A stretch of DNA of 64,000 nucleotides, taken from assembly GCA_025363385.1 (NCBI GenBank), contig JANYEA010000032.1, forward strand, positions 62,001-126,000, in the 5' to 3' direction. A program made the translations under genes and the position numbers. Source of the DNA: Bacteroidota bacterium (lineage in GTDB: Bacteria > Bacteroidota > Bacteroidia > Chitinophagales > Chitinophagaceae). This document shows, one piece after another, positions 1,414-19,732 of this stretch. Every line of letters begins with the position of its first letter. The stretch's first letter is position 1. Below the pieces are notes generated by a model, which was given only the letters and a program-made list of their open reading frames with translations, had not been told where the DNA came from and searched no databases.

Positions 1414-2802
1414 ATGAAAGATAACGCCGCATCATTTATTGCAAAAAGTACTATTAAAGCAGCTGATCTGGATCATCGCAGAAAGATCAATTTTAATATT
1501 AGCAAATACAATGCGGTTGTGCCTATTGGCAAGCAACAATTTTCTGACAATATGCTTGCCCGTGAAATTGCTAAAAATAAAAAATGGGATGCAATAGAGC
1601 ACCTGGATAAGCACCTCGAAAATTTTGAAAAAAGAATTACTGCGCGCGGGGCTAAAGTAATTTGGGCTGAAAATGCAGAAGAAGCGTTAGAGGAAATTGG
1701 AAAAATTTGTCAGGAAAAAAACTGTAAGACCCTTGTGAAAAGCAAGAGCATGGTTACAGAAGAAATTCATTTAAACCATTATCTGGAGTCAATTGGTATT
1801 GATAGTGTTGAAACAGATTTAGGCGAATATATTCAACAATTAGATGGTGAACCACCTTATCATATTGTTACCCCTGCCATGCACAAGAGCAAAGAAGATG
1901 TAGCAAAATTGTTTGCAGATAAATTGGGTACACCAGGTGGACTTTCACCCGAAGAATTAACTCAGGTAGCCAGAATTAAATTACGTGAAAAATATGTGCA
2001 GGCAGAAGTTGGTGTAACAGGAGCCAACTTTTTGTTGGCAGATATTGGTGCCATTGCCATTACCGAAAATGAGGGAAATGCTCGTTTAAGTTGCGCTTTT
2101 CCCAAAACACATATTGTAGTGGTGGGTATTGAAAAAATGCTTCCTTCTATACATGATCTTCCATTATTCTGGCCATTACTTTCTACTTATGGAACTGGTC
2201 AGCGTGTTACGGTTTATAACACCATTGTAACTGGTCCCAAACAAGCAAGTGAATCGGATGGCCCGGAAGAAATGTATGTGATCTTATTAGATAATGGTCG
2301 CACTAATTTATTAGCAAACCCTATCACCAGAGAAGCCTTATACTGTATTCGTTGTGGTGCCTGTTTAAATGCTTGTCCGGTGTACAAAAATATTGGCGGC
2401 CATTCTTACGAAACAACCTATAGCGGTCCAATTGGAAAAGTAATAACACCCCATTTACAAGGAATGGAAGAGTATAAACATTTAAGCTACGCTTCTTCTT
2501 TGTGTGGTAATTGTACAGAGGTTTGTCCGGTTAGAATTAATCTGCACGAGCTACTTTTAGAGAATAGGCATGAAGCAGTAGTTGGCGGTAGTAGTAGTAT
2601 TGCAGAACGCATTGCCTGGAAGGTTTGGAAAACAGCTAGCTTAAATAGAACATTGATGAATATGGGGAATGGGAAATTAAAGAACTGGATGGTGAATAAG
2701 ATATTCAAGGGATGGACAACGCATCGTTCTGAATTGGATTTCAGTGCTACAACTTTCAGCGAAATGTGGGAAGATCAGAAGGCCAATAAAAAGCAAGCTT
2801 AA
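1414..2802 (+). CDS. LutB-like iron-sulfur lactate utilization protein (LUD domain + 4Fe-4S)
   Basis: LUD-type N-terminal region and two Cys clusters CIRCGACLNACPVYK / CGNCTEVCPVRI. Confidence 0.85.
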   Translation: MKDNAASFIAKSTIKAADLDHRRKINFNISKYNAVVPIGKQQFSDNMLAREIAKNKKWDAIEHLDKHLENFEKRITARGAKVIWAENAEEALEEIGKICQEKNCKTLVKSKSMVTEEIHLNHYLESIGIDSVETDLGEYIQQLDGEPPYHIVTPAMHKSKEDVAKLFADKLGTPGGLSPEELTQVARIKLREKYVQAEVGVTGANFLLADIGAIAITENEGNARLSCAFPKTHIVVVGIEKMLPSIHDLPLFWPLLSTYGTGQRVTVYNTIVTGPKQASESDGPEEMYVILLDNGRTNLLANPITREALYCIRCGACLNACPVYKNIGGHSYETTYSGPIGKVITPHLQGMEEYKHLSYASSLCGNCTEVCPVRINLHELLLENRHEAVVGGSSSIAERIAWKVWKTASLNRTLMNMGNGKLKNWMVNKIFKGWTTHRSELDFSATTFSEMWEDQKANKKQA

Positions 2803-2817
2803 CCAATCAATACCTCT

Positions 2818-4116
2818 GTGTTATTAATTTACAGTCCGATCTCCAGCACTAGACTGGATTATATTTGTACAACACTTTTTAATAAAGAAGTATCTGTTAC
2901 TTCTGATAAGACTGTATTCCTGAATAGTACAACAGCCAAAATCAATTACTCTGAGGAGAAGATTTTGGAACACGATTTTAGAATAATACCAACAGGGCTT
3001 TTATTTCAAAAAAATATCCAAGACCAACAAATAGAATGTTTTGAATGGAATGGACTTACCAGATTTTTCAAAACAGAATCAGCAGATTTACCATTTGATT
3101 TTTTTTCTGCAGCATTTTATTTGATTTCCCGTTACGAAGAATGGCTGCCCTTTTTGCCAGATCAATATGGCCGATTTGATCATACGAATAGCCTGGCGTA
3201 CAAAAATAATTTCCTGCACCTGCCCCTAGTTCAATTATGGTTAGTGGAATTAGAGAAAATATTACAGGAATATTATCCAAACTATTCTTTGCCGAAAAGA
3301 AACTTCTCATTTGTACCAACTTACGATGTGGATATTGCATTTAGTTATTTGCACCAGCCATTTTTTAAAAACCTGCTTGGGTTTTATAGAGACTTGCTCA
3401 CTGCAAAATTTGAAAGTTTTGTAGAAAGAGGAAATGTGTATTCGGGTTATCAAAAAGACCCTTATGATCAATTTGATTTTATAGATGCGTTGAATGACCA
3501 ATACAAATTGTCCGCTATCTATTTTTTTCTATTGGCAGAAAAAAGAAAAGGAGTAGACAAAAATATACACCCTTCTAAAAAAGCACTCCAAGAACTCATA
3601 AAAAAAACCGCCCTAAAATATCAAACCGGGATCCACCCCTCCTGGCAAACTGCTGAAGAGAATACTTTACTGAAGAAGGAAATAAATACCCTATCAAAAT
3701 TAACCAATCAAATAGTAACTATTTCTAGGCAGCACTATTTAAAAATGACAATACCTGAAACCTACCCTAAGCTGATTGGTGCTGGTATAAAAAAAGAGTA
3801 TACCCTGGGATACGGCACCAGTAATGGTTTCAGGGCTTCTTATGCTATTCCGTTTTATTGGTATGATCTTAAAAATGATCGGGTAACAGATCTGGAGATT
3901 CATCCTTTTTGTTATATGGACGCCAACAGTATATTTGAATTGAGGTTGCCGGTGTATGAAGCAAAAAGTGAGTTGCAGGAATTATGGAATCAAACAAAAA
4001 AAGTGCATGGAGATATGGTTTGCATTTTTCACAATCATTTTTTAACTGATCAGCCTGAGTGGGCAGAATGGAAAAAAATGTATGTAGATTTTTTGAATGA
4101 AAATTTTGCGTGCTAA
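2818..4116 (+). CDS. Polysaccharide deacetylase family protein (GTG start)
   Basis: FVPTYDVDIAF motif, TGIHPSWQT and C-terminal FHNH typical of Bacteroidetes NodB-like proteins. Confidence 0.7.
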   Translation: MLLIYSPISSTRLDYICTTLFNKEVSVTSDKTVFLNSTTAKINYSEEKILEHDFRIIPTGLLFQKNIQDQQIECFEWNGLTRFFKTESADLPFDFFSAAFYLISRYEEWLPFLPDQYGRFDHTNSLAYKNNFLHLPLVQLWLVELEKILQEYYPNYSLPKRNFSFVPTYDVDIAFSYLHQPFFKNLLGFYRDLLTAKFESFVERGNVYSGYQKDPYDQFDFIDALNDQYKLSAIYFFLLAEKRKGVDKNIHPSKKALQELIKKTALKYQTGIHPSWQTAEENTLLKKEINTLSKLTNQIVTISRQHYLKMTIPETYPKLIGAGIKKEYTLGYGTSNGFRASYAIPFYWYDLKNDRVTDLEIHPFCYMDANSIFELRLPVYEAKSELQELWNQTKKVHGDMVCIFHNHFLTDQPEWAEWKKMYVDFLNENFAC

Positions 4117-5010
4117 TTATTTTAATGCCTTCAAACTCTTATTCACCAAGTAAACGCCTCCTAAAGTAATTAGAGATCCCAATATAATATTGATTGTGAG
4201 TTTTTCATTCATAATTACAGAACCCACCAAGATGGCTACAATCGGATTTACATAAGCGTAAAGTGAAGCGATACCAGGTTCGAGATTTTTCATCGAATAA
4301 ATAAATGCGATGAATGCGATGATAGAACCCGCAGAAACCAAATACGCAAGAGCCGCCCAAGTTTGTAAAGGAATGCTTCCAATTGGAATACTATCACCTG
4401 TTGCTAATACAATCAAGAACATTAAGAAGGAACTAATGAGCATCTGCCAGCCAGTAGCGTAGTATGGATTCATTTCTGTTTTCCTTCTAGCAATAAATAT
4501 AGTAGCCACAGCCCATGTAATCATGGCAATGATAGATAAGCTAACACCAATCCAAAATCCTTCCGAATGGTTGTGAAAAGCACTATCGTAAAACACCAAT
4601 GCAATTCCTGCAATTCCTAAAAACAATCCAATAAAAGTACCCCAGTTAATTTTATTGTTTTTATAGATTACCATCTCAATCACCACCACCGATAAAGGGT
4701 AAAGTGCTGCTATAAGCGCAGCCAATCCGCTGGGTATATAACGAAGTGCTAATGTGGCCAAACCATTCGACGAAACGAACATGAGTATGGCCATGATGGT
4801 TAACCAGCGCAATTGTTTCAGGGTGGGAAGGGGCAAACCTTTGAACAGAAAAAAACAAACATAAATAATACCCCCTGTAAATTGACGAATAGAAGCTACT
4901 TCAAAAGCGGGTGTCTTTTGCACACCAATCTTACTCACCACCCAGGTAGTACCCCAGACAAGGCTGGTGATCAATAATGCGATATATGCTTTTTGTTTGT
5001 TCGCTGCCAT
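4117..5010 (-). CDS. EamA/DMT family transporter
   Basis: Ten hydrophobic segments, LVWGTTWVVSKIGV and VGSVIMNEKLT motifs. Confidence 0.85.
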   Translation of the reverse strand: MAANKQKAYIALLITSLVWGTTWVVSKIGVQKTPAFEVASIRQFTGGIIYVCFFLFKGLPLPTLKQLRWLTIMAILMFVSSNGLATLALRYIPSGLAALIAALYPLSVVVIEMVIYKNNKINWGTFIGLFLGIAGIALVFYDSAFHNHSEGFWIGVSLSIIAMITWAVATIFIARRKTEMNPYYATGWQMLISSFLMFLIVLATGDSIPIGSIPLQTWAALAYLVSAGSIIAFIAFIYSMKNLEPGIASLYAYVNPIVAILVGSVIMNEKLTINIILGSLITLGGVYLVNKSLKALK

Positions 5011-5026
5011 TTTAATTAGATCCGAA

Positions 5027-6520
5027 TTAATGCCTGAAATGGCGTAATCCGGTCATTACCATTGCAAGGTTATTTTGCACGCAATATTCAATACTGTCTT
5101 TGTCTCTTACTGAGCCACCAGGTTGTATAAACGCCTCCATTCCAGATTCGTGTGCAATTTGAACACAGTCGTTAAACGGAAAAAATGCATCACTAGCCAA
5201 TACCGCACCCTTCAAATCAAATTTAAATTGATGCGCTTTTTCAATTGCATGGCGTAATGCATCAATCCGGCTGGTTTGTCCACAACCCTTACCTACTAGT
5301 TGTTTGTTCTTGATCAACGCAATAGCATTGCTCTTTAAATGTTTACAAACGATATTGGCAAAAATGAGATTTTCTTTTTCTTCGTCTGTTGTAGCGCGAC
5401 CACCTACTTCATCCCATTTGCTAAAGTTTCCTTCGTCTGTACCTTGCTCTAAAATACCATTCAATAAAGATTTGGAAGGTGCTTTTATCGCAGCGCCATC
5501 TGCTTTCAATTCTAATAAAATGCGATTCTTTTTAGTTTTTAAAACGGCTAATGCATCTTCATTAAATGCAGGAGCGATCAATACTTCAAAGAAAATTTCA
5601 TTGATGGCATCAGCAGTTACTTTGTCGATGTTACCATTACAAACCAATACACCACCGAAAGCACTTTCAGGATCTCCGGCTAAAGCAGCATCCCAGCTTT
5701 CTTTTATTGATGGTCGTTCTGCAATACCACATACATTGGTATGCTTGATGATGCCAAATACTTTATGAGAAGATGCGCTGAATTCTTTGATTAACTGCAC
5801 TGCAGCGTCTACATCCACAAGATTATTATAAGAAAGTTCTTTACCATTTAATTGGGTAAAGAGTTGTGTAAGATCGCCATGAAATACGGCAGACTGGTGA
5901 GGGTTTTCGCCATAACGTAAAGCCTGACTAATTCCTGGATTAAAATAATTGCTAATGGCAATGTCGTATTGCATCACTACTTCAAAAGCTTTAGCAGCAT
6001 AAGCCCTACGTTGCTCAATACTTGTTTCACCTTTCTGGTTTTTTAATAATTTTTCCAATGAAGCGTAATCATCTTTAGCTGCAATCACCACTAAATCTTT
6101 GAAGTTCTTTGCAGCAGCACGTATCATGGAAGGTCCACCAATATCTATTTTTTCAATGATCAGTTTTTCTTCAGAAGTAGTGCGAAGGGTTTCTTCAAAA
6201 GGATATAGATCAACAATTACCAGATCAATTTCCGGGATCTTGTATTCTTTCATTTCAACCAGATCCTGTGGTTCGTATCTTCTTCCAAGAATGCCACCGA
6301 AAATGGCTGGATGCAATGTTTTAACACGTCCACCCAAGATCGACGGGTAAGTGGTTAAGCTTTCAACGGCTACACATGTAATGCCAAGGTCTTCTAGGAA
6401 TTTCTGAGTACCACCTGTTGAATAGATGGTAATTCCTAATTCCTGTAATTGTTTGGCAATAGGTTCTAGTCCGTCTTTATAAAAAACGGAGATAAGTGCA
6501 GATTGAATTTTTTTTTGCAT
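5027..6520 (-). CDS. purH: Bifunctional AICAR formyltransferase/IMP cyclohydrolase PurH
   Basis: MQKKIQSALISVFYKDGLEPIAKQLQELGITIYSTGGTQKFLEDLG...; start chosen at the Met of MQKKIQ, not the ORF-track start at 6658. Confidence 0.95.
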   Translation of the reverse strand: MQKKIQSALISVFYKDGLEPIAKQLQELGITIYSTGGTQKFLEDLGITCVAVESLTTYPSILGGRVKTLHPAIFGGILGRRYEPQDLVEMKEYKIPEIDLVIVDLYPFEETLRTTSEEKLIIEKIDIGGPSMIRAAAKNFKDLVVIAAKDDYASLEKLLKNQKGETSIEQRRAYAAKAFEVVMQYDIAISNYFNPGISQALRYGENPHQSAVFHGDLTQLFTQLNGKELSYNNLVDVDAAVQLIKEFSASSHKVFGIIKHTNVCGIAERPSIKESWDAALAGDPESAFGGVLVCNGNIDKVTADAINEIFFEVLIAPAFNEDALAVLKTKKNRILLELKADGAAIKAPSKSLLNGILEQGTDEGNFSKWDEVGGRATTDEEKENLIFANIVCKHLKSNAIALIKNKQLVGKGCGQTSRIDALRHAIEKAHQFKFDLKGAVLASDAFFPFNDCVQIAHESGMEAFIQPGGSVRDKDSIEYCVQNNLAMVMTGLRHFRH

Positions 6521-14909: not shown

Positions 14910-16352
14910 ATGGAGGATGTGATTGTAGCTATTGAAGCACTATTTTTTGAATTTAAGAAAGCAGGAGCAGGCAGGATTGAAAAATTGCCACAAAGCGGAG
15001 GTGATCGTGTGTATTTCAGAATATATTTCAAAACAGAAACCTATATAGCCACCTATAATTTGCACGTTAAAGAGAACCAAACATTTATTGCGTTCAGTAA
15101 GCATTTTAAGAGCAAGGGGTTGCCCGTACCGGAAGTATTGCTGGTAAATCAGGACCAAACCATTTATCTGCAGGAAGACCTTGGAACAGCTTCTTTATTA
15201 AACGAGTTAGAGCAACAAGGGCACGGCGAAAAAACCTATCGTTTATTTCAAAAAAGCTTAACGGCGCTGGCAAGTGTACAAATAAAGGGAGATGCTGGAT
15301 TAGATTATAGTTTATGTTTAACTGCAAAGGAATTTGGAAAGCAAGCTATTTTGAGCGACCTGCTTTATTTTAAATATTATTTTTTAGATACCCTGCAATT
15401 GCCATACGATAAGCAGGCAATGATGGACGATTTCGACGCATTGAGTACCTATCTTACAAGAACAGAGAACAAGTATTTTATGTTCCGCGATTTCCAGAGT
15501 CGCAATATTATTGTAAACAAGGAGGCCGTTCATTTTATCGATTTTCAGGGTGGAATGAAGGGTGCTTTGCAATACGATGCGGCTTCATTATTATGGCAGG
15601 CAAAAGCAGAATTGAGTGAGCAATGGAAGGATGATTTGCTGGCATTTTATATGGATGAAATAAATAAGCTATTGGATCGCCCGGTTGATACAAATACTTT
15701 TGTAAGTCAGTATAATGGATATGTGTTGATTCGTTTATTACAAGTGATGGGGGCATATGGATTTAGGGGCCTCTTTGAAAGGAAAGCGCATTTTTTAACC
15801 AGTATTCCTTTGGGATTGAAAAATTTAAAATTCTTTTTAGAGCATAAAAGTGTTGGAATTTATACACCTGAGTTCGATAGGGTTTTGCGTTTAGTTGTTT
15901 CAGATGAAATTGTGCAACGCTTTGAACCGCAGCAAGCCAATGAGGATACGCCTTTACTCATTGAAGTAAATAGCTTTAGTTATAAGAAAGGAATTCCGGT
16001 AGATGATAGTGCTAACGGTGGTGGTTTTGTTTTTGATATGCGCAGCATTTTAAACCCGGGTCGATTTGATGATTATAAAACACTGAGTGGTAAAGATAAA
16101 TCGGTACAAGATTTTCTGGAAAAGCGTACCAGGATGAATGAGTATTTAAATAGTGTTTGGGACCTGGTAGATATTGCAGTAGAAGACTATTTGAAAAGAG
16201 GCTTTAGTCATTTGCAAATAAATTTTGGTTGCACTGGTGGGCAGCATCGAAGTGTGTACGCAGCCGAACAAACTGCCCGACATTTGAGAAATAAGTACAA
16301 GGTGAAATTGGTATTAACACATACCAACACAGCCAATTGGTTTAAAGGATAA
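14910..16352 (+). CDS. AmgK-like aminosugar/APH-fold kinase fused to a RapZ C-terminal domain
   Basis: N-terminal LPQSGGDRVYFRI, FRDFQSRNI, FIDFQGG (kinase); C-terminal GGGFVFDMRSILNPGRF and FGCTGGQHRSVYAAE (RapZ-C). Confidence 0.85.
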   Translation: MEDVIVAIEALFFEFKKAGAGRIEKLPQSGGDRVYFRIYFKTETYIATYNLHVKENQTFIAFSKHFKSKGLPVPEVLLVNQDQTIYLQEDLGTASLLNELEQQGHGEKTYRLFQKSLTALASVQIKGDAGLDYSLCLTAKEFGKQAILSDLLYFKYYFLDTLQLPYDKQAMMDDFDALSTYLTRTENKYFMFRDFQSRNIIVNKEAVHFIDFQGGMKGALQYDAASLLWQAKAELSEQWKDDLLAFYMDEINKLLDRPVDTNTFVSQYNGYVLIRLLQVMGAYGFRGLFERKAHFLTSIPLGLKNLKFFLEHKSVGIYTPEFDRVLRLVVSDEIVQRFEPQQANEDTPLLIEVNSFSYKKGIPVDDSANGGGFVFDMRSILNPGRFDDYKTLSGKDKSVQDFLEKRTRMNEYLNSVWDLVDIAVEDYLKRGFSHLQINFGCTGGQHRSVYAAEQTARHLRNKYKVKLVLTHTNTANWFKG

Positions 16353-16362
16353 ATTTTATTAG

Positions 16363-17097
16363 ATGAAAGCGATGTTATTTGCGGCAGGTTTGGGTACTAG
16401 GTTGAAACCCTTTACAGACAGCCATCCCAAGGCATTGGCTGTAGTAAATGGAAAAACTTTATTAGAAAGAAATATCCGGTACTTGCAAAAATTCGGGATC
16501 CACGAAGTGATTATAAACGTGCATCATTTTGCAGATCAAATTATAGATGCCATAGAAAAAAAGGAAGGTTGGGGTTCAAAAATTACGATCTCAGATGAGA
16601 GGGATGAAGTATTAGAAACAGGAGGAGGCCTTCAAAAAGCAGCCTGGTTTTTTGAAGGAAAAAAAGAATTTGTAGTAATGAATGTAGACATCCTAACAGA
16701 TTTGGATCTCAGTGAAATGATCATGCAGCATCAACAAGAGAAGCCTTTGGCAACATTGGCTGTTACACAAAGAAAAACATCTAGGTATTTTTTATTTGAT
16801 TGGAATAGTCATTTATGCGGATGGAGAAATATACAAACGGGTGAAGAAAAACCGGCAGATTTAAAAACTAGTTTTGAAGATTATGATGAATTGAAAATGA
16901 AAGCTTTTAGTGGCATTCATATAATAGATCCGATCATTTTTTCATTGATAGAGCAAAAAGGAAAGTTTTCAATGGTGGAGGTTTATCTGAATCTGATGAA
17001 GAAAAAAAAGATCAATAGCTTCGATCATACAGGTGGGGTACTTGTTGATGTGGGATCGTCAGAAAGCCTAGTGATAGCAGAAGGATTTTTTAGTTAA
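16363..17097 (+). CDS. Nucleotidyltransferase, MurNAc-1-P uridylyltransferase (MurU)-like
   Basis: MKAMLFAAGLGTRLKPFTDSHPKALAVVNGKTLLERNI; follows AmgK-like kinase. Confidence 0.8.
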   Translation: MKAMLFAAGLGTRLKPFTDSHPKALAVVNGKTLLERNIRYLQKFGIHEVIINVHHFADQIIDAIEKKEGWGSKITISDERDEVLETGGGLQKAAWFFEGKKEFVVMNVDILTDLDLSEMIMQHQQEKPLATLAVTQRKTSRYFLFDWNSHLCGWRNIQTGEEKPADLKTSFEDYDELKMKAFSGIHIIDPIIFSLIEQKGKFSMVEVYLNLMKKKKINSFDHTGGVLVDVGSSESLVIAEGFFS

Positions 17098-17113: not shown

Positions 17114-18157
17114 ATGAATAAAATCAAATTCGCCATTATTGGTTGTGGTAGAATTGCTGAAAGGCATGCAATTCATGCGGCAAATTATGGTGCGTTAATG
17201 GCTGTATGCGATATCATTCCAGAGAGGGCCAATGCACTTGCAAATCAATATCATGTTCCCGTTTTTTATCATATCGATGATTTATTGCAACAACATTTGG
17301 ATCTGGATGTGGTAGTTGTTTGTACGCCAAATGGACTTCATGCTTCGCATACTATTCAATCGTTTCAAGCAGGCTATCATGTGTTGGTAGAAAAACCAAT
17401 GGCTATTACGGTGGTCGATTGCAATGCTATGATGCTTGCCGCAGAGAAGGCGGGCAAACAATTATTCACGATCAAGCAAAATAGGTTTAATCCGCCCATA
17501 CAGGCTTTAAAAAATGCCATTGATCAACAACTCGTTGGACAACTCTTTTCATTTCAGCTCAGTTGTTTCTGGAATAGACCAGCAGCTTATTATCAAAATT
17601 CCTGGCATGGAACCGATTTAGATGGCGGTGTTTTGTTTACGCAGTTTAGTCATTTTATCGACCTCATCTATTGGTTATTTGGGGATGTGAAATCTGTAAA
17701 TGCCATTACCAAAAACTTTATTCATCATGATCTGATACAGGGAGAAGATACAGGTGTAGTGTTGCTTGAATTGGAGAGCGGAGCGCTTGGTACGATTAAT
17801 TATTCTGTAAATACTGCAGATAAAAATGTGGAGGGTTCTCTTACAATAATTGCCGATAAATTAACGTTAAAGATTGGTGGAGAATATTTGAATACAATCG
17901 CTTATCAGCAAGGCTATGAAATTCAATTAATTAACACTGAAGCACAAATACTTCCCAATGAGTACGGCAGTTATCAGGGTTCGATGAGCAATCATCATAA
18001 AGTGTATGAGAACTTGGTTCACACACTAGAGCAGGGTTTGCCCTATTATGCCACGGCTTATGAAGCAATGAAAACGGTAGAAGTAATTGAGCGAATTTAT
18101 CTATCTGCAAAAAAAGGGTCAAATGGAATATCAACAGAAACAAGTAAGTGTAAGTGA
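17114..18157 (+). CDS. Gfo/Idh/MocA oxidoreductase (WlbA/WbpB-like)
   Basis: FAIIGCGRIAERHAIHA, VLVEKPMAIT, SWHGTDLDGGVLFTQFSHFIDL. Confidence 0.85.
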   Translation: MNKIKFAIIGCGRIAERHAIHAANYGALMAVCDIIPERANALANQYHVPVFYHIDDLLQQHLDLDVVVVCTPNGLHASHTIQSFQAGYHVLVEKPMAITVVDCNAMMLAAEKAGKQLFTIKQNRFNPPIQALKNAIDQQLVGQLFSFQLSCFWNRPAAYYQNSWHGTDLDGGVLFTQFSHFIDLIYWLFGDVKSVNAITKNFIHHDLIQGEDTGVVLLELESGALGTINYSVNTADKNVEGSLTIIADKLTLKIGGEYLNTIAYQQGYEIQLINTEAQILPNEYGSYQGSMSNHHKVYENLVHTLEQGLPYYATAYEAMKTVEVIERIYLSAKKGSNGISTETSKCK

Positions 18158-18575
18158 TGTAACGTTTGGTAAAAACGTAACAATCGTTCAGCCTTCCAAT
18201 ATTTATCAGTGTAAATTAGGGGATGATTGCTTTGTAGGCCCCTTTGTAGAAATACAGAATGATGTAACCATTGGCGACAATTGCAGGGTTCAATCACATA
18301 GTTTTATTTGCGCTCTGGTAAGTCTTGGTAAAAACTGTTTTGTGGGTCATGGGGTGATTTTTGTAAATGACTTATTTACCAACGGAGGCCCATCTGGTAA
18401 TCCCGCACTTTGGAAAAAAACCACTATTGGTAATAATGTATATTTTGGTAGCAATAGCACTATATTACCAGTTAGTATCTGTGATAATGTGGTGATAGGT
18501 GCAGGAGCCGTGGTTACCAAGAACATTACAATGCCTGGAGTGTATGCTGGAAATCCCGCTAAAAAATTGCGTTAG
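18123..18575 (+). CDS. Left-handed beta-helix N-acetyltransferase (WlbB/WbpD-like)
   Basis: Hexapeptide repeats, GVIFVNDLFTNGG, NVVIGAGAVVTKNI; overlaps end of oxidoreductase gene. Confidence 0.8.
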   Translation: MEYQQKQVSVSDVTFGKNVTIVQPSNIYQCKLGDDCFVGPFVEIQNDVTIGDNCRVQSHSFICALVSLGKNCFVGHGVIFVNDLFTNGGPSGNPALWKKTTIGNNVYFGSNSTILPVSICDNVVIGAGAVVTKNITMPGVYAGNPAKKLR

Positions 18576-18577
18576 AA

Positions 18578-19732
18578 TTAAACCTTGATATAGATCTTTT
18601 TTTTGTCTAACAAATACACGATCGACCAATAAAAAGCGATTGTTATTAAAGCATAAACCAATGAGCCAACTCTTAGATCAGCTGCAATGTTTTTACAAAC
18701 ATTTTCATAGAACCATGGAAATGCAGAAGTATATACTTTCTTACCTGTTGAAACGTCTATATGGTCAACCCATCGTACTAATGCCAATATTCTTGGTAAA
18801 AACCCGCTCAGAACAAAGATGAACAAAGGGTTCTTTCCAAATACGTCAAAGAATTTACTCCAGGCACCTCTCACCGATTTGAATTCGATGAGATAGATAA
18901 ATGCTGAAAGGGTTAGAATACCCAATCCGCTTGTGTAGAGCACATAACTGCTCGTCCATATTTTCTTATTAATGGGAAATACCATATCCCAGCAGTAGCC
19001 ACTAAAAACCAGAACGATACCGGCCATCATCAGTCCAGCAAGCATTTCAAAATTCTTGCCTTTTTGCTGGATATACTGGCCAACTAAAAATCCAAAGATC
19101 ACTTGAACAACAGGGGCACCGGCACTAGCCAATCCTTCTGGGTCAAAAGCCACTCCTTCGCCCTTGTACATATGTGTAATGCCTAATATTTTAATATCGA
19201 AATTAGTGCCGAACCAACCCGATAAACTATAGGGGTCTGCCGGGTTGCCGAGCGTTAGGCAGATAAACCAATAGAGTAATAAAATGATAGCACCTATCAC
19301 AAAAGCACCTCTTGCTTTTGCATAAAATACAATTACGGATGCAAAGAAATATGCGATAGCAATTCTTTGAAGCACACCAAGTATGCGAATGTTTTCCCAG
19401 ACTTTAAATATTAGATTTTCGCCATCCCATTTTACAAACGGACTCCAATTTAGAAAAAGGCCAATGGCGAATATGAGGAGGGTTCTTTTAAGTACTTTTT
19501 TCCAGAAATGTACAGGTCCGGCTTCCTCAAATCGGGGCATCACAAAAGCCATCGCGTTACCAACTGCAAAAAGAAAAAAAGGAAACACAAGATCCGTGGG
19601 GGTTGCACCATGCCAGGGGGCATGTTCCAGCGGGTCGAAAATATGAGCCCAGCTACCCGGGTTATTTACCAAAATCATCAGTGCTACCGTGGCACCTCTA
19701 AAAACGTCGAGCGAATAATAGCGTTCCTTCAT
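18578..19732 (-). CDS. Membrane acyltransferase, HGSNAT/NagX-like (DUF5009)
   Basis: YYSLDVFRGATVALMILVNNPGSW and HGATPTDLVFPFFLFAVGNAM. Confidence 0.85.
   Translation of the reverse strand: MKERYYSLDVFRGATVALMILVNNPGSWAHIFDPLEHAPWHGATPTDLVFPFFLFAVGNAMAFVMPRFEEAGPVHFWKKVLKRTLLIFAIGLFLNWSPFVKWDGENLIFKVWENIRILGVLQRIAIAYFFASVIVFYAKARGAFVIGAIILLLYWFICLTLGNPADPYSLSGWFGTNFDIKILGITHMYKGEGVAFDPEGLASAGAPVVQVIFGFLVGQYIQQKGKNFEMLAGLMMAGIVLVFSGYCWDMVFPINKKIWTSSYVLYTSGLGILTLSAFIYLIEFKSVRGAWSKFFDVFGKNPLFIFVLSGFLPRILALVRWVDHIDVSTGKKVYTSAFPWFYENVCKNIAADLRVGSLVYALITIAFYWSIVYLLDKKKIYIKV

Follow-up and report, generated by a model that had tools for sequence, protein, structure and literature searches.

The C-terminal domain of RapZ (RapZ-C) is encoded in a Chitinophagaceae genome as part of a single open reading frame that begins with an AmgK-like sugar kinase and is followed directly by a gene for a MurU-like nucleotidyltransferase. 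This locus, which lies within the 64,000-nucleotide stretch of DNA analysed here (the window), raises the question of what a domain with homology to an RNA-binding regulator contributes to a pair of enzymes that resemble those of cell wall sugar salvage. An earlier note on this DNA had proposed that RapZ-C may be an aminosugar-phosphate sensor that allosterically gates the kinase and couples peptidoglycan recycling to the level of GlcN6P within one polypeptide. We have used profile searches, structure prediction and surveys of related genomes to address this question. The fusion architecture is itself visible by Pfam, and the new content of this work is the pathway that we infer together with a catalytic proposal for RapZ-C.

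Several reports bear on the function of this domain. According to the title of a 2018 paper by Cui et al., Xanthomonas HpaP has NTPase and phosphatase activity. NTPase and phosphatase activity has also been reported for the B. subtilis RapZ homologue YvcJ, with no domain given for the activity in the accessible part of that report (PMC7525490). In E. coli RapZ, a substitution at H190 inactivates the protein and the C247S variant is likewise inactive, a result for which the authors suggest a catalytic thiol and which is still called unexpected in their 2022 structure paper (PMC9841335). The RapZ pocket had been likened in 2020 to the phosphate loop of PTP phosphatases, with hydrolysis of GlcN6P proposed as a guess (PMC7199280). 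A search of 5.39 million open papers, with subscription journals largely outside its coverage, found no paper on a pairing of RapZ with AmgK or on a fusion of RapZ-C to another kinase, and no biochemical study of such a fusion.

Architecture of the fusion protein

The fusion gene is present as a single copy in the 3.65-Mb genome of the window and has its nearest named relatives in Chitinophagaceae. All five motifs quoted in the earlier note are found in the 480-residue product, namely LPQSGGDRVYFRI at residue 26, FRDFQSRNI at 192, FIDFQGG at 209, GGGFVFDMRSILNPGRF at 370 and FGCTGGQHRSV at 439. Profile searches also bear out the two-part architecture that it had described, as Pfam places APH (PF01636) at residues 33-247 and RapZ_C (PF22740) at residues 350-467, the latter with a score of 113 bits (cut-off 27; Table 1). 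The model of full-length RapZ (NF003828) scores 104 bits against an equivalog cut-off of 244 and aligns over profile positions 146-273 of 278 only; the P-loop half of RapZ is therefore absent, as the note had stated. AlphaFold2 models of the whole protein (mean pLDDT 90.2) and of the C-domain (90.8) are confident and lead to the same assignment, since Foldseek matches the N-terminal part to APH kinases and the C-terminal part to the RapZ-CTD structure 5o5s with 32% identity. A scan for sigma-70 promoters and terminators gave nothing above shuffles.

Table 1. Coordinates of features at the fusion locus, numbered from the first letter of the window
Feature	Position	Strand	Basis
CDS, 480 aa, AmgK-like APH-fold kinase plus RapZ C-terminal domain	14910..16352	+	ATG start; Pfam, NCBIfam, AlphaFold2, Foldseek
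Kinase domain (APH/AmgK fold), about aa 1-330	14910..15899	+	Pfam APH 3.3e-11; NCBIfam AmgK 9.6e-16; Foldseek 3csv E 1.8e-12
Kinase catalytic loop FRDFQSRNI (D194, N199)	15483..15509	+	Alignments A1 and A3 show no variation at D194 or N199
Metal-binding motif FIDFQGG (D211), DFQ instead of DFG	15534..15554	+	Alignments A1 and A3 show no variation at D211
RapZ C-terminal domain, aa 349-472	15954..16325	+	PF22740 1e-32; phmmer to 5o5s 3.9e-15; Foldseek TM 0.88 to 5o5s
GGGFVFDMRSILNPGRF, lineage-typical glycine-rich insertion; NPG versus NPH (H190) of canonical RapZ	16017..16067	+	Alignment with canonical RapZ
C441-T-G-G-Q-H-R447-S448, phosphate loop (C-x5-R) in the pocket of RapZ; C247-S254 in E. 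coli	16230..16253	+	Alignment
MurU-like sugar-1-phosphate nucleotidyltransferase (predicted), 244 aa, 10 bp past the end of the fusion gene	16363..17097	+	Pfam NTP_transferase; NCBIfam MurU best model

By fold the kinase belongs with AmgK, as it has the APH fold, RDxxxxN in its catalytic loop and a metal motif of the DFQ type (RDxxxRN is present in 114 of 117 kinases), and the transferase, found immediately downstream as the note had claimed, belongs with MurU by gene partnership, having an AmgK-like kinase gene alongside. Neither is a member by score. The two NCBIfam AmgK models give 57.8 and 44.3 bits where 550 and 500 are required, far below equivalog level, and the MurU models, which score highest for the transferase (4e-38), give 131.5 and 106.2 bits for cut-offs of 250 and 370, again below that level. 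Consequently, we refer to the two proteins as AmgK-like and MurU-like.

Directly after this pair the window holds genes for a Gfo/Idh/MocA oxidoreductase and a NeuD-like hexapeptide acetyltransferase (17114-18575), with rmlB/C/A-like genes from 19991, so that surface-glycan precursor genes adjoin the salvage pair. Between them, on the minus strand (18578-19732), is a gene for a 384-residue membrane protein that by eye resembles the heparan-alpha-glucosaminide N-acetyltransferase (NagX-type) family; in 6 loci a homologue of it is encoded close to the fusion. Beyond the three modules no neighbour family occurs in more than 8 of the 119 loci surveyed, with the few recurring ones bound to particular lineages, and the glycan-precursor genes of the window are not among the commonly recurring families.

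Distribution and gene arrangement

RapZ-C occurs in 36 of 299 Bacteroidota genomes sampled. The homologous kinase is present in all 36, fused to RapZ-C in 27, encoded by an adjacent gene in 7 and unlinked in 2. In the seven adjacent cases the RapZ-C gene lies directly beside that of the kinase, followed by that of the transferase, while the two orphan RapZ-C genes have uninformative neighbours (endonuclease I and an MFS transporter without an NCBIfam match). The transferase gene is directly adjacent in 28 of the 36 genomes, and the remaining eight have a homologue elsewhere, with near-typical scores in five and a lower one of 276 bits in G169, while those of G313 and G221, at 227 and 189 bits, are clearly more diverged. 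A transferase homologue, linked or not, was found in 12 of the 12 genomes searched for it. Thus the fusion is neither universal in Bacteroidetes nor always next to the nucleotidyltransferase, two generalizations that the earlier note had raised as questions. A close relative of the kinase occurs without RapZ-C in one genome only (G049), where the kinase and transferase pair is kept; this genome is also without AnmK, MurQ, NamZ and a NagK-type kinase. Where more distantly related kinases lack RapZ-C, the genome always belongs to one family, f33.

A scan of GTDB contigs yielded 587 confirmed relatives, of which the best 80 were kept. Among these best 80 of 587, 79 are fused, and they come from Bacteroidota (including Bacteroides, Phocaeicola and Parabacteroides), Ignavibacteriota, Calditrichota, Delongbacteria, Elusimicrobiota and Acidobacteriota. 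As the same fusion also recurs in nearly every congener searched, often interrupted at contig ends, its architecture is not a chance artefact. The transferase is directly downstream in 54 of the 79 fused loci, three contigs being too short to tell, and in one of the 54 it is part of the same reading frame. This is a Bacteroidaceae MAG (L155, positions 2983-5265) in which a single ORF of 760 residues encodes kinase, RapZ-C and nucleotidyltransferase. That the three modules travel together in this manner we count in favor of a salvage enzyme. In a quick kinase tree with long branches flagged, split forms arise three separate times within the fused clade, a nesting that indicates that fusion came first and was followed by fission, with both halves remaining side by side. 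Allostery within one polypeptide, as the earlier note had it, is therefore not required.

An arrangement of this kind could also be explained if RapZ-C only dimerizes or scaffolds the kinase-transferase pair and has no ligand role. The triple fusion would suit such a role, as would the dimerization of E. coli RapZ-CTD via strand 179-182 (PMC5737377), a segment that is conserved as FVFD in the C-domain of the fusion. We nevertheless consider pure scaffolding improbable, since RapZ-C also occurs as a separate gene and its most conserved part is the ligand loop and not just the interface.

Co-occurrence with MurNAc pathways

MurQ is the catabolic MurNAc-6-P etherase and AnmK is the anhydroMurNAc kinase. 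Both were mapped on the same 299 Bacteroidota genomes, with genomes counted without phylogenetic correction. Of the 199 kinase-less genomes 197 have MurQ, both exceptions belonging to f33; MurQ occurs in 17 of the 100 genomes that have the kinase versus all 197 kinase-less genomes outside f33. The 36 RapZ-C genomes include 17 with MurQ, and the 63 f33 kinase genomes include none. A genome with AnmK and without MurQ has MurNAc-6-P that lacks its usual fate. This state was found in 12 genomes from six families, every one of which carries the kinase and RapZ-C, as compared to 0 of the 183 AnmK-positive genomes that are kinase-less (Fisher p about 1e-12, relatedness ignored). Both the mutual exclusion with MurQ and this 12 of 12 pattern count for MurNAc salvage and thereby uphold the link to that pathway which the earlier note had drawn. 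The same either/or relationship of AmgK-MurU and MurQ has been reported in Proteobacteria (PMC5371407). AnmK alone was rejected as support for a RapZ-C phosphatase given that its frequencies are equal with and without RapZ-C (26/36 versus 183/263), and AnmK becomes informative only when it is considered jointly with MurQ. The genome of the window has both AnmK and MurQ, so that MurNAc-6-phosphate in this organism also has a catabolic fate.

The f33 kinase genomes, which are without RapZ-C, AnmK and MurQ, offer a second line of evidence. In f33 loci (L182-L188) the genes for the AmgK-like kinase and a MurU-like transferase of 309-324 residues, with a hexapeptide tail in the one Pfam-scanned, overlap or abut. 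In several of the loci examined the pair is followed by genes for a NamZ exo-N-acetylmuramidase and an SSF sodium symporter, and from its gene content this cluster appears to be a compact MurNAc scavenging operon. The MurNAc transporter MurT of T. forsythia is likewise a sodium symporter (PMC5790795). MurNAc would thus arrive unphosphorylated in f33 and a phosphatase would not be needed, which counts for a phosphatase role of RapZ-C, in a contrast that is drawn mainly from this one family. NamZ was discarded as a discriminator since it is present in 289 of the 299 genomes.

RapZ-C genomes without AnmK would require another source of sugar 6-phosphate. All ten of them have a BadF/NagK-type kinase (PF01869) beside an AmpG-family transporter, an observation made post hoc with no background genomes for comparison, and most also have a NagZ-type GH3 gene alongside, with one having MurQ and NamZ. 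We count this arrangement in favor of a NagK/MurK-type kinase as the 6-phosphate source. In nine genomes (L197-L205) the AmpG-family transporter gene is next to that of the NagK-type kinase, several also with a gene for a GH3 (NagZ-type) plus beta-lactamase-domain protein, forming what seems from gene content to be a peptidoglycan recycling operon. In G271 the genes for kinase, MurQ, NamZ and an AmpG-like protein occur together.

Taken on this evidence, the kinase and the MurU-like transferase are probably a MurNAc salvage pair. The profile scores well below the AmgK and MurU cut-offs count against this reading, as sugar specificity could differ. The pair might instead serve another sugar, such as GlcNAc or a hexosamine of glycan precursors, with RapZ-C acting on its 6-phosphate and MurNAc being incidental. 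P. putida AmgK does accept GlcNAc as well (PMC5371407), and the oxidoreductase and hexapeptide acetyltransferase genes of the window are typical of surface-glycan precursors. These neighbors do not commonly recur in the survey, however, and MurQ exclusion, the AnmK-positive MurQ-negative genomes and the presence of NamZ in related f33 operons all point to MurNAc, which leaves a different sugar unlikely.

Conservation and loss in the RapZ-C pocket

The phosphate loop of RapZ-C, with the sequence GCTGG[QRK]HRS, is intact in all 119 domains of the survey, all of which thereby match the C-x5-R-(S/T) loop of PTP-type cysteine phosphatases, and its Cys is also invariant across an alignment of eight RapZ-C proteins that are not fused, a set that includes six canonical RapZ. 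The RapZ pocket consists of H190, T248, G249, H252 and R253 together with C247, and all of these are retained bar H190, the position of which is Gly (NPG) in 117 of the 119 domains beside a lineage-specific glycine-rich insertion. Alignment with canonical RapZ additionally places R238 and the basic C-terminal tail K281-K283 among the residues that are not conserved, with most RNA-contacting basic residues lost. Because the loop is invariant while H190, R238 and K281-K283 are lost, the phosphate loop appears to be under stronger constraint than RNA function, a pattern that counts for catalysis. A further reading is that RapZ-C is an RNA-binding adapter that, as in E. coli, regulates glmS or some other mRNA and is merely joined to a metabolic enzyme in this case. 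This would fit the fold homology to an RNA-binding domain, but it is highly improbable given these losses and given that the RNA-binding region of E. coli RapZ is described as restricted to Enterobacteriaceae (PMC7073468). The sequence pattern suggests rather that RapZ-C is part of an enzyme than an RNA-binding regulator.

The main rival to a phosphatase is a sensor role, in which RapZ-C would bind an amino-sugar 6-phosphate (GlcN6P, GlcNAc-6P or MurNAc-6P) without turnover and switch the kinase on or off, in cis where fused and in trans where split. Most of the phosphate pocket is conserved, tight association with the kinase would suit a regulatory subunit, and RapZ-C tracks genomes that have a 6-kinase. 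On the other hand, the full Cys loop is kept, for which a simple sensor has no obvious use, an invariant Cys is unnecessary for plain phosphate binding, the genes are separated in three lineages, and the conversion of MurNAc-6-P to MurNAc would be left unexplained in the 12 AnmK-positive MurQ-negative genomes unless another phosphatase is present. The replacement of H190 by Gly further disfavors GlcN6P specifically, the ligand named in the earlier note, whose sensor proposal is not supported as it was worded. We regard a sensor of any of these ligands as rather unlikely.

A phosphatase reading draws indirect support from the suggested likeness of the pocket to the PTP loop, from the inactivity of C247S and from the phosphatase activity reported for YvcJ, and RapZ-C may well be the phosphatase of this pathway, a prediction that we hold tentatively. 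As in PTP-type cysteine phosphatases, a C-x-x-G-x-x-R-S loop lies between a strand and a helix of the C-domain; unlike them, the C-domain has no significant overall fold match in a PDB search. Indeed, a PTP/DSP fold was rejected for the C-domain because the only such matches returned by Foldseek were to DUSP at E 2.2-2.5, which is noise, and no WPD-type general acid was identified in the C-domain, where D376 and H471 are candidates by their invariance. These two results count against a phosphatase, as do the lack of AnmK enrichment and the presence of MurQ in the genome of the window.

A proposed salvage pathway

From the domain identity, conservation, co-occurrence and gene order observed we infer the following substrates, phosphatase chemistry and order of steps. 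MurNAc-6-phosphate, produced by AnmK or a NagK/MurK-type kinase, would be the most likely ligand of the C-x5-R loop of RapZ-C, which would remove the 6-phosphate via a cysteinyl-phosphate step. The freed MurNAc (or GlcNAc) would then be phosphorylated at the anomeric position by the N-terminal AmgK-like kinase and converted to the UDP-sugar (UDP-MurNAc) by the MurU-like transferase encoded next door, with RapZ-C taking the place that MupP, a HAD phosphatase, has in Pseudomonas. Taken whole, a bifunctional cell wall sugar salvage enzyme with RapZ-C phosphatase and kinase activities, working with a MurU-like transferase, is a serious possibility that falls somewhat short of probable. A wider proposal is more speculative and somewhat less probable. 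In it, RapZ-C would be a phosphatase domain for amino-sugar 6-phosphates that has been paired with two unrelated kinase folds, P-loop in canonical RapZ and APH in the fusion, the fusion would turn a sugar 6-phosphate into a 1-phosphate via the free sugar, and E. coli RapZ would be an enzyme converted to an sRNA adapter.

This pathway resembles the AnmK-MupP-AmgK-MurU route of Pseudomonas in setting an AmgK-like kinase beside a MurU-like transferase and in tending to exclude MurQ, but MupP is a separately encoded HAD phosphatase in that route while RapZ-C is here fused to the kinase, and the Pseudomonas AmgK and MurU are only remote relatives of the kinase and transferase in the window. With E. 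coli RapZ, B. subtilis YvcJ and Xanthomonas HpaP the fusion shares the fold of the C-domain, the C-x5-R pocket and an N-terminal kinase-type domain, and a link to amino-sugar metabolism has been reported, as has phosphatase activity for YvcJ and HpaP. It differs from them in having an unrelated APH-fold kinase in place of the P-loop domain, and in the loss of H190 and most RNA contacts. Tannerella forsythia (MurT, MurK, MurQ, NamZ) provides a precedent for MurNAc scavenging in Bacteroidota, where a uridylyltransferase route to UDP-MurNAc has been proposed; its characterized MurK is an ASKHA 6-kinase and not of the APH fold, and no RapZ-C has been described there.

If RapZ-C is a phosphatase, this would explain the original purpose of the conserved pocket of RapZ and would supply the missing MurNAc-6-phosphate step for Bacteroidota that have AnmK and are without MurQ. 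It would also mean that gut Bacteroidota (Phocaeicola, Parabacteroides, Bacteroides) have a UDP-MurNAc salvage route, which is relevant to MurA bypass. With regard to the pocket of RapZ, its thiol and its original activity, fusion to a sugar kinase beside a transferase offers defined candidate substrates and a clean assay.

RapZ-C also has another enzyme partner, as Nudix is associated with it on actinomycete plasmids. In a plasmid of Streptomyces sp. NBC_01238 (L195, positions 3001-3882) a Nudix-like sequence (PGGHVDRGETAIEAAVRELAEETGV) comes after RapZ-C within a single protein, and in Planobispora rosea pPR2 (L194, positions 2219-3498) a NUDIX hydrolase gene lies directly upstream of RapZ-C. 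In a plasmid of Desulfosarcina ovata (L196, positions 2567-3171), rapZ is annotated as two short separate pieces and is apparently broken.
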